Of a stretch of DNA of 64,000 nucleotides, positions 36,623-61,056 are shown in pieces. The translations under genes were made by a program, and so were the position numbers. This DNA comes from Desulfofarcimen acetoxidans DSM 771. GTDB taxonomy: Bacteria; Bacillota; Desulfotomaculia; Desulfotomaculales; Desulfofarciminaceae. The stretch is taken from positions 4,030,001 through 4,094,000 of the forward strand of contig NC_013216.1 of NCBI RefSeq assembly GCF_000024205.1, given 5' to 3'. Position 1 is the first letter of the stretch. The number at the start of each line of letters is the position of its first letter. Below the pieces are notes generated by a model. It worked only from the letters and a program-made list of their open reading frames with translations, did not search any database and was not told the DNA's origin.

Positions 36623-36831
36623 ATAACATAAAAAATATGCTAAGCAAAACATTTCTTCCACCATTTAGGTTGAGGAATATTACCATTTGACTCAATAATT
36701 GTCTTCTAACTTAAAATATCATTCAACAATAATTACAGTATCATCAAATATATTATAATTATTTCCTCCTTGAAGCTTACTGTATTCCGTAATATAATAA
36801 ACATATAAATACCACCAGGAGGCCAATCACT

Positions 36832-37320
36832 ATGACAATAACTAACCCTATTCACGAATCTATCACAGTTAAACCCGAAGTAACCACACTGGTCAATCAA
36901 ATTATAAAAAACGGCTACTACAAAAAAGAATCCAACACCGAAAGATTCACCATGCTTAAATCTTTGGCTGAAAATATCTGCCGGATTTACAACGTATCCC
37001 CTGTTAAAATCATAACCCAGAATGTACCCCTCGGAGCCTATGCCTGTTACGTCCCTTCAGCTAATACAATTAAACTCGGCAATACCAGCATAGTCAGCTT
37101 CCTACATGAACTCCGTCACCACCTACAATTTACCGGCGACAAACAAAAACGTGGTCTTAATAAAGAACAGGATGCACATGCATGGAGTTTGAGAGTCTTT
37201 AGTATAGCTGTTCCAAAAATGTTTGAGAAGGACGTTAAGGAAGATAAAATTGCAGCATTGGCCTGGGATGATGATAATCAAAAAGTAGTTAACCGTATCG
37301 GCTACAGTCAGATTATTTAA
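36832..37320 (+). CDS. Zincin-like protein with HELRH motif
   Basis: 162 residues. SFLHELRHHLQFTGD carries an H-E-x-x-H zinc-binding motif, and a later Glu/Asp-rich region (NKEQDAHAWSLRVF) could supply the third ligand, as in zincin-type peptidases. AGGAGG precedes the ATG. It is a plus-strand gene at the border of the minus-strand phage block and has its own terminator at 37325. Phages carry similar small zincin-like genes of unknown target. The motif is solid; peptidase activity is inferred. Confidence 0.6.
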   Translation: MTITNPIHESITVKPEVTTLVNQIIKNGYYKKESNTERFTMLKSLAENICRIYNVSPVKIITQNVPLGAYACYVPSANTIKLGNTSIVSFLHELRHHLQFTGDKQKRGLNKEQDAHAWSLRVFSIAVPKMFEKDVKEDKIAALAWDDDNQKVVNRIGYSQII

Positions 37321-51557: not shown

Positions 51558-52001
51558 TTAAGTATGTTTTAGTTTGGATTTATAAAACTCGTGGTCTTTA
51601 TCTAAAAAGACTACATAAAAAACATTTCTGACAACATGACCGATAATACATTGCTTACCAGTTATATGAATTCTTGCCCATAATGCATCATCTGGAATGT
51701 GTTTAGGGTGGAAAAATTCAGTAACATTTTTAGGAGGAAAATCACCATATACTGTAAATTTATCGGTATTAGACTGTGATGTAAGTGTAGAACAGCAATA
51801 ATTCCTTATTAATTCAAAAGCTCTGGCAAGAATTCCTTCCTTTTCCCACTCAATTAACGATTGCCCTTGTTCCCTGTCTAAATCTTTTAAACTAAATAGA
51901 AACATGCTATTTGAATCTTGTTCATCCTGTTTTGCTTTGTTATTGTTTGATAATCCTGTAAACAAACTTCTTTGTTTTTTAGTCTTCGGTATTTTTGCCA
52001 T
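51558..52001 (-). CDS. Putative toxin partner of the Panacea-domain protein
   Basis: 147 residues from the ATG at 52001 (GGGAG upstream). The N-terminal ~45 residues are basic and low-complexity. The C-terminal part has WARIHITGKQCIIGHVVRNV, then FYVVFLDKDHEFYKSKLKHT. Proteins ending in a FLDKDHxF-type motif are common as second genes after Panacea (DUF4065/SocA-like) antitoxins. Its start overlaps the end of the Panacea gene by 23 bases, as in coupled toxin-antitoxin pairs. Toxin activity is inference. Confidence 0.6.
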   Translation of the reverse strand: MAKIPKTKKQRSLFTGLSNNNKAKQDEQDSNSMFLFSLKDLDREQGQSLIEWEKEGILARAFELIRNYCCSTLTSQSNTDKFTVYGDFPPKNVTEFFHPKHIPDDALWARIHITGKQCIIGHVVRNVFYVVFLDKDHEFYKSKLKHT

Positions 52002-52470
52002 AAAGCATGCTCCCATAGAATTGCTTTATCAAATCTTTATATATTACGGCTTCACATTTATCACTTGGAGCATAACCAAGTCTTGCTCTTCGCCATGGTT
52101 CTTCAGAATGAGTTAGGCACTCTAAATAATATGCTGTTTTATCCCCATATTCATCTAAAACATCATTTATCAGTTCTAATTGTTCACTGCTAATGTATTC
52201 AGATATATCAAAATAACCTTCCTCTAATTTAATTGGGTCATATAAAACTGATTTATCTCTAAAGTAATTCCAGATATTACGAACTACCGGGCCATGCATC
52301 CATGCTTCAAATTGATCTTCAATTAAAGGTTGGTTAAAATAAACATTATGCCATGCATCAACATAATATATTAGTTTTTGCAATTTCAAATGACTTACTT
52401 CATGGCCTTTATCATTAACATACTTAATGACATGCCTAGATAAATCAATTGGATTTATTTGTTTCAACAT
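51979..52470 (-). CDS. Panacea (DUF4065/SocA-like) domain protein
   Basis: 163 residues from the ATG at 52470 (AAGGGGGG upstream). The domain reads VSHLKLQKLIYYVDAWHNVY, then FNQPLIEDQFEAWMHGPVVR and IWNYFRDKS, the classic Panacea sequence. These domains act as antitoxins with very varied toxins, often by binding or by delivering proteins to proteolysis. It is followed by an overlapping partner gene. Known hyperpromiscuous antitoxin context fits a phage-carried toxin-antitoxin or anti-phage module. Confidence 0.85.
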   Translation of the reverse strand: MLKQINPIDLSRHVIKYVNDKGHEVSHLKLQKLIYYVDAWHNVYFNQPLIEDQFEAWMHGPVVRNIWNYFRDKSVLYDPIKLEEGYFDISEYISSEQLELINDVLDEYGDKTAYYLECLTHSEEPWRRARLGYAPSDKCEAVIYKDLIKQFYGSMLYGKNTED

Positions 52471-52564
52471 AATATTAACCCCCCTTCTCATAATTAAATA
52501 ATACCATAATAACATTGCTTTTAGAATAAGTAACATTAAACTAAATTTTTACTGATATATTTTC

Positions 52565-53023
52565 TTAAACTAGATTAAGTTTAAAGTTTGCCGTTTCAAG
52601 GTTTTTGATATCTATTCCCCAATCACTATAACCATCGGCAATTATACTGAAATATGCTTCCCCCGGAGGTGTCAGCATATAGTGGTCAAGCATACGATAA
52701 ACAAAGGCTTTAACTATCTCCCCGGTATCTTCTCTGACAACTTCGATAACATGCCTGTTATACAGCCGGGGATAACCTTCATAACGGTCAAGTGATTCAC
52801 GGTCAAATTTTGATACTTTGTATATTGCACCTGTTACAGAGTCACCATCTTTTGGCTGTATGTCAGCTACCCCGTTTCCTCTCCAGTTCCCCTTAAAGGT
52901 TAACTCATAATCTGCCAACGTTGCCTTGGCAATTGGTATGCTGTCAGGACATCTATTTTGCATTTGTTCTTTATGAAGATTGGAACCGTAAGCGAAGTAA
53001 TATAGTTGCAGCAGTCTTTTCAT
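52565..53023 (-). CDS. AIG2-like gamma-glutamylcyclotransferase-family protein
   Basis: 152 residues with YYFAYGSNLHKEQM, the signature of the GGCT/AIG2 fold, then GDSVTGAIYKVSKFDRESLD and YEGYPRLYNRHVIEV, which contains the catalytic Glu. Members cyclise gamma-glutamyl amides and release the amine, giving pyroglutamate. AGGAGG precedes the ATG. It lies in the same cluster as an amidoligase and an ABC-GNAT fusion, which suggests a role in making or reversing gamma-glutamyl-type amides. Confidence 0.85.
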   Translation of the reverse strand: MKRLLQLYYFAYGSNLHKEQMQNRCPDSIPIAKATLADYELTFKGNWRGNGVADIQPKDGDSVTGAIYKVSKFDRESLDRYEGYPRLYNRHVIEVVREDTGEIVKAFVYRMLDHYMLTPPGEAYFSIIADGYSDWGIDIKNLETANFKLNLV

Positions 53024-53109
53024 TATGTCAAACCTCCTGAAGTTGCCTGTAAATGTTTTATATGTATATTATATTACGGAATAGGGTAAATTTCAAGGAC
53101 AGAAAAGAA

Positions 53110-53137
53110 AAAAGACGGGATTTTATTCCACGTCTTA
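53110..53137 (-). terminator. Terminator after the 91-aa gene
   Basis: AAGACG/CGTCTT inverted repeat with a 13-base loop; the minus strand continues into TTTTTTCTTTTC. Confidence 0.65.
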
Positions 53138-53138
53138 G

Positions 53139-53414
53139 TTATTCTTGTATTTTGAGGTTTGTAATAATTTCTACCCTTACGAGTTCAAGAATAAAGCTTT
53201 CATAGTCAGTATAGGAAATTTCTTTGCCGGTCTGGAACTGTACCCTTCTTTGGGTGTCCTTCATGTATTCTTTAACGTCTTTTCCCGGTTTAAAAGATGT
53301 ACTACGAAGTTTTCTCACTAATTCCTCATAGGTTTTACCCTCTAAGACTAACCCATCTATAAAGGTAGCTATAAGCATTTTTAACAACCTTTCCTTTTTA
53401 GCTGATTGTGCCAC
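53139..53414 (-). CDS. Small phage protein in the amidoligase cluster (91 aa)
   Basis: From the GTG at 53414 (GGAAGGGG upstream) the frame encodes 91 residues: SAKKERLLKMLIATFIDGLV, EELVRKLRSTSFKPGKDVKE and FQTGKEISYTDYESFILELV. It is helical and charged; I know no family. It lies 70 bases after the amidoligase gene and before the AIG2 gene with a terminator between, so it is transcribed with the former. A substrate peptide or carrier is conceivable but unsupported. Confidence 0.5.
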   Translation of the reverse strand: MAQSAKKERLLKMLIATFIDGLVLEGKTYEELVRKLRSTSFKPGKDVKEYMKDTQRRVQFQTGKEISYTDYESFILELVRVEIITNLKIQE

Positions 53415-53487
53415 TATTATTATTCCCCTTCCGGTTAATTTATTATATATGGAGAGTCGGGCTATTACAACCCGACCCTTTATTCTA

Positions 53488-54351
53488 TTAGGCTGCCTGG
53501 GATTCAAAATGCTGGCGACGTTTAATCTGGAATTTAATTGCTTGGCCATATTCGTTTTCCAGGCTTTCACGGGTAACTTCACCGAATAAGGTTCTTCTAA
53601 GTCTTCTTTCATGGTTGAAGTTTGTTACTGCATCACGGTCATGGTCTTTTTTAGCTAATCTTATAGTTTCAAGCTTTGCTCTTTCAACTATCGATTGTGT
53701 AAACATTACCCAGTTAGTTGCTTTGTCTGCATCTACAGTGCCACTATGCTGGCGAAATTCAATGGTTTCATGTCTGAAGTAGGACTGGAAATTTAATTTC
53801 AGGTAACGGTCTGGGAGGCTATGCCTTAAGTCGTTTATGGTTCTTGCCTTTTCAACTGATTCAATTATTTCTTTGTTAATTCCCTTGCAGTAGATATTAT
53901 GGCTCCCTCTCCTGCTGGCCGGTACTACGGAATCGAAGTAGTTTTCAAATTTGTAGTAGATGTAGTAGATATTCTGGAAGTCTTTGACCTGGTAATCGGT
54001 AACATCATGGTGTACATGCAATCCACAACTTCTGTCAACTTTAGCACCGGCTTGGTCAAGTGCCTTCATAACGGTAGCTAATTCGACTAATCCCTGCTTG
54101 CCAGTTAATTTTGGGCTTACTACTTCCCAACCCCCTCTGGCTAAGCCTGTTCCTCTGTTGTTCACGGATGCATCGGTAACTAATTTCCAATGAGGTCTGG
54201 TTGAGTGGTTGTAGCCTTCTTTGTAGATTGTGATTCCTGCTGTTCTTATAGCCTGGATAGCTGTTTCAGAACTGATTCCATTGAATTCAATTTCTACTCC
54301 GAAGGTACGGTTCTCGTTAAAGTTGAAGCTTTTTAGTGTGTTCATTGCCAT
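53488..54351 (-). CDS. Amidoligase (glutamine-synthetase-fold carboxylate-amine ligase)
   Basis: About 287 residues from the ATG at 54351 (GGAGG 9 bases upstream). The GS-like core shows RTFGVEIEFNGI (metal-binding Glu pair), SCGLHVHHDVTDY (His-x-His) and RHETIEFRQHSGTVDADKAT, the last strand with Glu and Arg. These are the marks of amidoligase_2 proteins, which join carboxylates to amines using ATP. The gene is in a phage block next to an ABC-GNAT fusion and an AIG2 protein; comparative work by Iyer, Aravind and colleagues on amidoligases describes such ligases with cyclotransferases and acetyltransferases. The substrate is unknown. Confidence 0.85.
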   Translation of the reverse strand: MAMNTLKSFNFNENRTFGVEIEFNGISSETAIQAIRTAGITIYKEGYNHSTRPHWKLVTDASVNNRGTGLARGGWEVVSPKLTGKQGLVELATVMKALDQAGAKVDRSCGLHVHHDVTDYQVKDFQNIYYIYYKFENYFDSVVPASRRGSHNIYCKGINKEIIESVEKARTINDLRHSLPDRYLKLNFQSYFRHETIEFRQHSGTVDADKATNWVMFTQSIVERAKLETIRLAKKDHDRDAVTNFNHERRLRRTLFGEVTRESLENEYGQAIKFQIKRRQHFESQAA

Positions 54352-54497
54352 TAGTGTCATCCTCCATGTTGTCCGTTTTTATTGGTTCCTTGTTCTGAAA
54401 TTATTATATTACGGAAAGGAGGAATTATCAAGGATAAACTGCCACTTTCTTCAACTTTTTGCCACTTATTAGATTATAATGCCGATACTTGGTTTAC

Positions 54498-55892
54498 CTA
54501 GCTTGCCGACCATTCAGGGTTTTCCCAGATGTAATATATCCGGTTTTTAGGAAGGATTTCTTTTATCATTGCTGCCACTTCTTCTTTGGTATATTCATCT
54601 GCCGTCCTATCACTGGCTTTCTTCTTGTTAGGGTTAACTCCCTGCACCCCACCGTCTTTGGCTTGACGGACTTTTTTAACGATTGGGTCAGCTATGAGTT
54701 TATATGTGGCTTCATCGAGTTCGTTTAGTTTCTGTAAGTTATACTGCCGGGAGTTGGCTAATACCATATCCCAACCTAACAGTTGTAGCTGTGAACGGAT
54801 TTTTTTAAAACGATCATTGCTGGTGTAATCAACTTTAGTCATACCAGCTTTTTCAGCAAAGGGATTAAAGTTTCCCATTGTAGTCAACATTTCAACGTAC
54901 CTCTTGCCGGTTAACGGTAGAGTATCTTTGATTAATTTTGAACCAAGGCCAATTCCACGGTATTTCGGGTGTAGGACTACCCGGCTTATCAGTGCCACTT
55001 CTTGGTTTAGTAGCCTTGCAACTTCACTTGTGGCAGCTTTATATCTCTGGGTAAATTGATTACGTCCGGCTAAAGCCAGATAAGTGTAGCAATATATTAT
55101 AACACCGGTTGTTTCTTCGCCGTTTGTGTACTTATATATTTTCTGTGGTACTGTGACTTTACCAGAACGATAATGGAAACGGGAAAGGGTTTTGTAGTCA
55201 TCAAGGGTTCCATCTTGCAGCTTTAGGTTTTTGATTAGAGAACATTGAAGGGGTTCGGTAACAGGCAAATAAAAAAGGGCTACCTCTTTCTCTAGCCCTT
55301 TACGGATAAGAATATTTGGTTGTAGGTCATCTTTTAAATCATTGTGAGTGGTTGCCACTACTAGAGTTTTGTTAAACTTTCGGCAAATCTTCTGCATGTT
55401 AAAAGCTACTACTTTAGCTGTCTCCCGGTCAAGTAAGGCACAGAATTCATCTATGAAGTAAGCATCTGCTGTTGTTTCCAGCAGCTTGGCCAGTTGGTAA
55501 CGGTATTTCTGACCGTCAGATAACTCCTTATATTTACGGAGAAAGATGAAAGCATCGTTAAGTCCAACCAGTGTTAGGTAATATATAGCCTGGTCAATGT
55601 TTTGGCCTACACCATCAATGATTACAGTGTCAGGTTCTATTTGTAGTTCATTTGTTGCTACGGCATTGGGATATTGCTGACGGAGTTCTTTTAGCAGTAT
55701 TGATTTACCACTGCCGGAATCACCGGTTATGTAGATGATATTCCCCTGGGATATATCGAGTTTTAAGTTATCATATATGGTAAATGTGAATTCATCGTCT
55801 AATGAGATGCCAAAGGCTTCGGATACGGCTAATGTTCTTTCGGTGATTTTAGTTTTCATTGTGAATTGCTTAGTTATACAGTACTTTGCCAC
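54498..55892 (-). CDS. ABC-type ATPase fused to a GNAT acetyltransferase
   Basis: 464 residues from a GTG with GGGGGA upstream. The N-terminal half is an ABC ATPase: Walker A GDSGSGKSILLKEL, signature YKELSDGQKYRYQLAKLLE and Walker B AYFIDEFCALLD, with an H-loop THNDLKDD. The C-terminal half is a GNAT domain with VALISRVVLHPKYRGIGLGS (acetyl-CoA loop) and a tail rich in Lys/Asp. No transmembrane segment exists, so it is not a transporter. The domain pair is found in phages and has been discussed in connection with Mom-like DNA base modification and with peptide tagging; the actual substrate is unknown. Confidence 0.8.
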   Translation of the reverse strand: MAKYCITKQFTMKTKITERTLAVSEAFGISLDDEFTFTIYDNLKLDISQGNIIYITGDSGSGKSILLKELRQQYPNAVATNELQIEPDTVIIDGVGQNIDQAIYYLTLVGLNDAFIFLRKYKELSDGQKYRYQLAKLLETTADAYFIDEFCALLDRETAKVVAFNMQKICRKFNKTLVVATTHNDLKDDLQPNILIRKGLEKEVALFYLPVTEPLQCSLIKNLKLQDGTLDDYKTLSRFHYRSGKVTVPQKIYKYTNGEETTGVIIYCYTYLALAGRNQFTQRYKAATSEVARLLNQEVALISRVVLHPKYRGIGLGSKLIKDTLPLTGKRYVEMLTTMGNFNPFAEKAGMTKVDYTSNDRFKKIRSQLQLLGWDMVLANSRQYNLQKLNELDEATYKLIADPIVKKVRQAKDGGVQGVNPNKKKASDRTADEYTKEEVAAMIKEILPKNRIYYIWENPEWSAS

Positions 55893-59710: not shown

Positions 59711-60940
59711 CTAGTTAATTATTTTCCATATTCTTGTTGATGTTGCATTATAATCATCATCATAAGTATTCATCCTAGAAATGGGCTCAATTGATAGACG
59801 ATCTTTAGCTTCACCCAAGATTCTACCAATAGCCATATTTAAAGGATCTCCAACTATATAATCGTTACTATTAAGTTTTTTAACTAACTGTATTGTTGTA
59901 AATTCATTTTTATTGTTTAGCTTGAAATTATTTATTTCATTTTGAATATCTTCAATACAAATATCATGCTTTTCAATTATATTAATAGCACTTTTTAGAA
60001 GAAGATTTCTGTCAATAAGTTCTTCTATAGTAATTTTATCTTGTATTATTGAATTAAGTTCTTCTATATTAATATCTTCATTCACTGTTGAATTGATTTC
60101 CTCTAGACTAATTATTTCATGCACTGTCGGATCATCCTGGCTCATGCCGTCATATCCTAAAAACTTCTCTGGCCTATAAATCAAACAATGTACTTCTGCC
60201 TCGTTATACATTTCTTGGATTAATTCTGGCCTTGGTCCTAAAGTTTTACCATGTAAATTTAGCCACCAATCATCTTTTCTATCATCGGTTACAAATATAA
60301 TAGGTTTTTTTTGTTCTCTTGCATAATCAATAGTTTGTTGCCATAATATATAATCATTGTATTTGTCATTTCCCGACTTCCTCTCTTTATATCCTGGAGG
60401 TATTTCTTGGTCATACCTCAATTTAGCAATATTATATAGTTGCTCTAGTTTTTCTTTATTATAAGGTGTACCTATTCTTCCATCAAATAAATCAACAATT
60501 TGCTTAAGTATTATATCATCCTCTGAGTATTTTATATCACTACTTTTCGATTCCTTTAGCTCCTTAGAAATATCTTCACCTGTTTTTTCTAGAATACTTG
60601 TTATCTTTTCTATACTAATTGAAAAGTGTCTATCCTTATATTTTTTTAATTGACTTATTATTTTAGGAATATCTATGATAGATTCAATAGTATTATACAA
60701 ATTCTCCTGTTGAAAAATAACTTCCAAACGATTGGAAACATATTCTACTGCAACTTGATGGGGTATCCACATTCTATCCTGGTATTTTTCCAATACTTCT
60801 ATAAAAGCTTTTTGAGTACTTGAACTATATCTATATAAATTTAATAAAATATTAGTATCAAAAACAAAAATTCCATCGTTCCAAATCTCTTTAAATTGTT
60901 CTTCTGATGGTCTAATATGACCAATAAATAGACTATGCAA
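59711..60940 (-). CDS. PIN-like domain protein (DUF4935 type)
   Basis: About 409 residues from a TTG at 60940 with GGAGG 8 bases upstream. IFVFDTNILLNLYRYSSSTQ carries the first PIN Asp. MWIPHQVAVEYVSNRLEVI and KPIIFVTDDRKDDWWLNLHG carry later acidic residues; the latter, with PELIQEMYNEAEVHC, is typical of the larger PIN-like domain proteins. The C-terminal ~130 residues are Glu/Asn-rich repeats (EEINSTVNEDINIEELNSII). Probably an RNase; large PIN-like proteins occur in defence islands. The IS630 element lies directly upstream. Confidence 0.75.
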   Translation of the reverse strand: MHSLFIGHIRPSEEQFKEIWNDGIFVFDTNILLNLYRYSSSTQKAFIEVLEKYQDRMWIPHQVAVEYVSNRLEVIFQQENLYNTIESIIDIPKIISQLKKYKDRHFSISIEKITSILEKTGEDISKELKESKSSDIKYSEDDIILKQIVDLFDGRIGTPYNKEKLEQLYNIAKLRYDQEIPPGYKERKSGNDKYNDYILWQQTIDYAREQKKPIIFVTDDRKDDWWLNLHGKTLGPRPELIQEMYNEAEVHCLIYRPEKFLGYDGMSQDDPTVHEIISLEEINSTVNEDINIEELNSIIQDKITIEELIDRNLLLKSAINIIEKHDICIEDIQNEINNFKLNNKNEFTTIQLVKKLNSNDYIVGDPLNMAIGRILGEAKDRLSIEPISRMNTYDDDYNATSTRIWKIIN

Positions 60941-61056
60941 AAGCACTCCTCCAATAAGCAATCATTTAACTAAGCTTAAAAACTAAATTATTTGCATTGC
61001 TTGATTTTTAATTCTTTATATCTTCTAAGAGGTTATCAATACATAGATTTTAACTA

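Follow-up and report, generated by a model that had tools for sequence, protein, structure and literature searches.

Four co-oriented genes in a prophage of Desulfofarcimen acetoxidans DSM 771 are read here as two devices lying side by side: a co-regulated system for making and removing amide conjugates, which consists of an amidoligase, a small partner protein that we call X91 and a gamma-glutamyl-cyclotransferase-like protein of the AIG2 type, and an autonomous, DNA-directed fusion of an ABC ATPase with a GNAT acetyltransferase domain (ABC-GNAT). We give this reading a probability of about 0.5. The genes fit in 52565-55892 (minus strand) of the 64,000-nucleotide stretch analysed, called the window (NC_013216.1 positions 4,030,001-4,094,000, from a single-contig genome of 4.55 Mb), between the integrase and TerS-like genes on one side and TerL on the other; all coordinates are in window numbering (Table 1). 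A first-pass annotation had placed a ligase, a cyclotransferase, an ABC-GNAT and a 91-aa gene on one strand within 3.4 kb, which is confirmed here. The enzyme families of the block are already known, while X91 and the regulon described below appear to be new. In the following, L-numbers denote phage or prophage loci and G-numbers bacterial genomes.

The linkage between X91 and the amidoligase is far beyond chance. Among the 17,714 open reading frames (ORFs) of the IMG/VR loci, all 61 X91 matches lie beside an amidoligase and none elsewhere. X91 is present in 53 of the 80 amidoligase loci, and it stands downstream of the amidoligase on the same strand in 28 of the 44 clusters obtained at 80% identity, so that the 91-aa protein, previously treated as a bystander, turns out to be the most constant partner of the ligase. 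By comparison, it is found in just two of 80 ABC-GNAT loci, each of them a copy of the whole block. Since the X91 profile went through one round of rebuilding on its own strong matches within the IMG/VR loci, the remote matches are somewhat circular. However, a separate whole-genome scan, which gave eight X91 matches in five of 398 genomes of the phylum, agrees with the linkage and supports it apart from this circularity: five of the seven matches outside the window adjoin an intact amidoligase and one adjoins a truncated one.

X91 appears to be a new small family that constantly partners phage amidoligases and is undescribed in the family libraries searched. Its members are 75-93 aa long and have no consistent family match in Pfam or PHROG; the N_formyltrans_C, DUF7557 and MCM_C matches of single members were rejected because they differ from member to member. 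The AlphaFold model is a compact domain of two strands, three helices and one strand (predicted local distance difference test, pLDDT, 86.8; predicted template modelling score, pTM, 0.74). No match was found in PDB by fold or by sequence (best fold E 0.4, template modelling score, TM, <0.3), and the fold matches in BFVD are unnamed phage proteins only (E 4e-4, TM 0.75-0.79). A 157-aa ORF (53139-53612) that runs into the amidoligase gene results only from choosing the first ATG, and the 91-aa form with a GTG start is preferred.

Relatives of the whole block were sought by profiles and tblastn. The order ABC-GNAT, amidoligase, X91, AIG2, TerL and portal recurs in three further prophages, L044 in G008, which belongs to the same taxonomic order as the source genome, and L255 and L254 in G405 and G426, respectively, which belong to another family of the same phylum. 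The identities to the window in L044, L255 and L254 are 60, 66 and 58% for ABC-GNAT, 66, 52 and 51% for the amidoligase, 51, 47 and 45% for X91, 54, 58 and 53% for AIG2, and 76, 72 and 72% for TerL. The same four-gene order at 45-66% identity in three genomes indicates that the block is more than chance, and the possibility raised in the first-pass annotation that these genes are never conserved together did not hold. Since the four prophages share their structural genes (TerL and portal), they represent a single lineage and do not count as independent samples. The long-form ABC-GNAT was found in three of the 398 genomes of the phylum, with the block present in all three; G008 came from a class search. 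In addition, G405 has a broken second ABC-GNAT fragment.

The amidoligase and AIG2 genes are preceded by the same 29-bp motif, TTGA-N19-TATAAT with TTCCGTAA inside. Exactly three matches are found in the whole source genome, against none for the control, and the third lies in the other prophage arm upstream of a gene for a metallopeptidase-like protein with an HELRH motif. G008 also contains exactly three copies (control 0), which lie at its orthologs of the amidoligase, AIG2 and HELRH genes, and L128, a close relative, has the motif at both its amidoligase and AIG2 genes. The HELRH protein matches its ortholog in G008 at 1.3e-56, while its match to the putative metallopeptidase family DUF6782 is weak (0.059, below the cut-off). 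No motif copy precedes ABC-GNAT in the window or in G008. Judged from the sequence, the amidoligase, AIG2 and metallopeptidase-like genes are predicted to form a three-promoter regulon, which appears new; three promoters of one type that occur nowhere else in the host genome would mark genes acting together.

Some further elements were seen around these promoters. Repeats of the AAAGTGKCA type, possible regulator sites, lie upstream of the amidoligase promoter (54432-54500, minus strand) and are also present in L044 and L128. The regions upstream of the amidoligase in L254 and L255 (5560-5690) differ from that of the window and resemble each other, with the inverted repeat ACGGTAAA...TTTACCGT. 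Another inverted repeat, which has no T run, stands between the amidoligase and X91 at about 53455-53476 (minus strand), and also in L044 and L128; it could be an attenuator or a processing hairpin.

Table 1. Features of the four-gene block and its surroundings (window numbering)
Feature	Position	Strand	Evidence or remark
ABC-ATPase fused to GNAT acetyltransferase domain (P0001, 464 aa, GTG start)	54498..55892	-	Pfam/PHROG, AlphaFold
Amidoligase_2, glutamine-synthetase-fold carboxylate-amine ligase (P0002, 290 aa)	53488..54360	-	PF12224
X91, small amidoligase partner (P0014, 91 aa)	53139..53414 (GTG start at 53414)	-	Linkage, model; no named family
AIG2 / gamma-glutamyl-cyclotransferase-like protein (P0004, 152 aa)	52565..53023	-	PF06094
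Promoter/operator-like motif TTGATAATTCCTCCTTTCCGTAATATAAT before amidoligase	54403..54431	-	1 of 3 genome-wide matches
Promoter/operator-like motif TTGAAATTTACCCTATTCCGTAATATAAT before AIG2	53068..53096	-	1 of 3 genome-wide matches
Third motif copy, other prophage arm	36770..36798	+	Genome-wide motif search
Metallopeptidase-like protein, HELRH motif (P0021, 162 aa), same promoter type	36832..37320	+	Motif upstream, ortholog in G008
Intrinsic-terminator-like hairpin and T run after X91, before AIG2 promoter	53108..53136	-	Read from sequence
TerS-like gene	58004-57597	-	Upstream of block
Integrase	57478-56582	-	Upstream of block
TerL	51376-49709	-	Downstream of block
SocA/Panacea antitoxin-like gene (P0005) overlapping small unknown gene (P0006)	51558-52536	-	Between AIG2 and TerL

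The presence of a glutamine-synthetase (GS)-fold ligase next to a constant protein of 75-93 aa, together with a co-regulated metallopeptidase-like gene, recalls pupylation: X91 would be a small modifier or dedicated substrate conjugated by the ligase, and AIG2 or the metallopeptidase-like protein would reverse the tagging. However, Pup is a small modifier with a conserved C-terminal Glu/Gln, whereas the C-termini of the X91 family are not conserved and no Gly-Gly-Glu/Gln tail was seen. Moreover, X91 is predicted to be a compact folded domain, and its Foldseek rows to the proteasomal ATPase Mpa are not significant (E 0.4) and were discarded as noise. We consider such tagging very improbable. 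It could also be supposed that the four genes are unlinked morons, that is, accessory genes without joint function in a permissive TerS-TerL slot. Neither P0005 and P0006 nor P0007 has a counterpart in the related prophages L044, L254 and L255, which points to turnover in this slot. Yet the four genes are kept in order while their neighbours turn over, and the X91-amidoligase linkage and the shared promoters go far beyond chance, which makes the moron explanation improbable for the block as a whole; for ABC-GNAT relative to the trio it is possible.

Whether the block is one module or two can be judged from the loci in which its members occur apart. AIG2 is found in 27 of the 80 IMG/VR amidoligase loci and in 18 of the 44 clusters. 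With a loose profile, ABC-GNAT is found in only three of the 80: two are the block itself, and the third (L138) is false, its weak ABC match coming from another kind of NTPase whose N-terminal part is deaminase-like. In L128 the trio is present and the 548 bp upstream of it, up to the contig end, contain no ABC-GNAT; conversely, no amidoligase was found in the available locus DNA of the long-form ABC-GNAT homologues L049, L051, L053, L054 and L056. The amidoligase-X91-(AIG2) module is widespread, and ABC-GNAT is separate from it in most phages.

ABC-GNAT has features of its own, and its gene context suggests a role in work on DNA. Because single-sequence scans found few relatives of it and of the amidoligase, alignment-built profiles were used for both. 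It matches ABC_tran in Pfam at 1.2e-11, with GNAT below threshold (0.003), and phrog_886 over residues 215-460 at 2.6e-23. Its AlphaFold model has a pLDDT of 90.7 and a pTM of 0.86; in a PDB fold search with the whole protein, residues 1-212 match solved ABC ATPases (Z about 18), the listed matches being ABC domains. Walker A, the LSDGQ signature, Walker B, the H-loop and the RGIGLG acetyl-CoA loop are all present, so that the full set of ABC motifs and a GNAT CoA-binding loop are united in one chain, as expected of an ABC-coupled GNAT, and G57, S59, G60, K63, S125, D148, E149, H183, H240, Y241 and R304 are invariant in 49 homologues. Comparison of the GNAT part with Mom by hhalign is not significant (probability 1.2, E 0.045; Mom set Mu-like only), with a His-Tyr pair in register. 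ParB lies within 600 bp of ABC-GNAT in 42 of 79 loci, although the ParB profile had no match in the prophage of the window or in L044. Furthermore, a family B DNA polymerase is fused in frame to ABC-GNAT in L050 (7439-11371, 1310 aa), a single ORF in L055 (7011-9011) joins a ParB-profile match in its N-terminal region to ABC-GNAT, with a terminase gene adjoining, an adenylosuccinate synthetase-family gene directly follows ABC-GNAT in L054 (11473-12549), and in L053 ABC-GNAT adjoins ribonucleotide reductase/polymerase B. This context of ParB and DNA-replication genes matches the prediction, given in a jumbo-phage survey, that a GNAT coupled to an ABC ATPase acylates a DNA base in a manner still uncharacterised (PMC7824862). 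As a separate observation, the gene beside ABC-GNAT in Gordonia phage AnClar (L021:2312-2962), annotated as a tRNA-methyltransferase, matches Formyl_trans_N.

The other two enzymes are intact by their residues. Residues 16-225 of the amidoligase match PF12224 at 2.8e-49 (168.7 bits, cut-off 22), and E23, E25, D63, E79, H115, R185, N190, E201 and R203 are invariant in 85 of 85 aligned sequences; with its Glu/His residues invariant in this alignment, the suspicion that the ligase might lack them falls away. A search of PDB by sequence found no Amidoligase_2 structure. AIG2 matches PF06094 (GGACT) at 1.2e-15, and in its alignment with human GGCT (2pn7, 3.7e-12) both YGSN and the position of the catalytic Glu (the LDxxEG glutamate) are kept. 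In PADLOC the trio had no match, and the ABC matches were generic only.

On this basis we infer how the two devices might work. The amidoligase would use ATP to join a carboxylate to an amine on its target, and the donor is probably, by family precedent, an amino acid such as glutamate reacting through its gamma-carboxyl. X91 would serve as a dedicated partner of the ligase, be it adaptor, specificity subunit or substrate. AIG2 would remove gamma-glutamyl amides as 5-oxoproline, and in this way trim or deprotect the product or undo stray conjugates. The two transcription units would be switched on together by the common phage promoter type, which would also drive the metallopeptidase-like gene. 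ABC-GNAT is probably an acyltransferase on DNA, aided by its own ATPase. A similar logic is known from butirosin synthesis, where BtrJ adds gamma-Glu to an amine and the AIG2-type cyclotransferase BtrG removes it as 5-oxoproline. The likeness to the add-and-remove steps proposed here is an analogy only, since BtrJ is an ATP-grasp enzyme and not of the GS fold, and its setting is antibiotic synthesis on an acyl carrier protein.

Several points weigh against this two-device reading. The motif is absent in the L254 and L255 prophages when searched at up to three mismatches, and the literature found reports no activity, substrate or product for any member. Most amidoligase loci are without AIG2, and the removal step is therefore not obligatory. 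X91 may itself be a substrate and not an aid to the ligase. Moreover, the fact that the four genes stay together in four prophages hints at a functional tie between the modules. The first-pass annotation had proposed that the genes together make one modification. What stands of this is that they are conserved together in one prophage lineage, that the AIG2 and amidoligase residues are kept and that the survey cited above had given a prediction of a DNA-base role for ABC-coupled GNAT; a single pathway for all four genes is possible, not established. In such a pathway, the amidoligase, X91 and AIG2 would make an aminoacyl or gamma-glutamyl group, and ABC-GNAT would install this group on a DNA base, or acylate it further there, giving hypermodified phage DNA that evades restriction. 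Points in its favour are that four prophages from different genera keep the gene order, that the trio is adjacent in all four genomes found with a full-length long-form ABC-GNAT, that the terminase adjoins, and that amidoligase, AIG2, ParB and ABC-GNAT, in mixed orientation, share a stretch of about 5 kb in the distant high-GC contig L106. However, the modules are separate in most phages, the shared promoter is missing at ABC-GNAT, the available sequence of L128 shows the trio but no ABC-GNAT, and the four prophages are one lineage by TerL and portal, so we regard this pathway as unlikely. A bolder version, in which a reversible amide-conjugation system with the new-family X91 delivers a product that is used with ABC-GNAT to equip phage DNA, or a nucleotide precursor, with a new kind of group derived from an amino acid, controlled by a dedicated prophage regulon including the metallopeptidase-like protein, is in our judgement quite unlikely. 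If the target is indeed DNA, an amino-acid-type modification would be added to the known base hypermodifications of phages.

Alternatively, the trio may alter a component of the host envelope so that competing phages cannot adsorb. Such a role was proposed for the phiEco32 amidoligase, as cited in PMC11318856, and carriage on a prophage is compatible with superinfection exclusion. But the block is without any transport or cell-wall gene, and neither its position between the integrase/TerS genes and TerL nor the co-regulated metallopeptidase-like gene suggests the envelope; we hold this to be an unlikely explanation.

For more than 10 years, phage annotations have listed amidoligases and AIG2 proteins without a known product, and the constant partner X91 gives a handle on the ligase. 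The pair is annotated in Tn6164 of Clostridioides difficile (Orf22-23, PMC3485107) and in Arthrobacter cluster AL phages (genes 97-98, PMC5513430). In both, and in Bacillus phage 035JT001 (genes 41 and 45), Amidoligase_2 is near AIG2/GGCT as here, and the Tn6164 pair is directly upstream of the terminase. The difference is that these descriptions neither single out X91 as a conserved partner nor mention a shared promoter, and that no ABC-GNAT is attached. LUZ24-like phages also have amidoligase and AIG2 in one early cluster, the set in UFV-P2 being COOH-NH2 ligase, amidoligase, glutamine amidotransferase, ATP-grasp and AIG2 (PMC3890496). Here, X91 and ABC-GNAT take the place of the amidotransferase and ATP-grasp enzyme, neither of which was found among the ten neighbouring proteins scanned. 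The ABC-coupled GNAT of Tenacibaculum phage pT24, mentioned in PMC7824862 citing Iyer et al. 2013, has the same domain pair and is among the homologues found; the protein of the window differs in lying beside an amidoligase, whereas ABC-GNAT elsewhere is often beside ParB, and in having a GNAT part that is longer and extended at the C-terminus. P0001 also unites in one gene what is encoded by SSU5_127 plus SSU5_129 in the SSU5-type phage-plasmid cluster (L005), where the two split genes are linked to ParB and not to an amidoligase.

The prophage around the block corresponds to an IMG/VR entry (L008, contig of 34,467 bp). Its genes on the minus strand are in the order TerS-like helix-turn-helix protein, integrase, membrane protein, ABC-GNAT, amidoligase, X91, AIG2, SocA/Panacea, unknown gene, TerL and portal. 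P0005 and P0006 are a possible toxin-antitoxin pair, and a PIN_8-domain protein is encoded at 59711-60961 (minus strand), just beyond the prophage edge.

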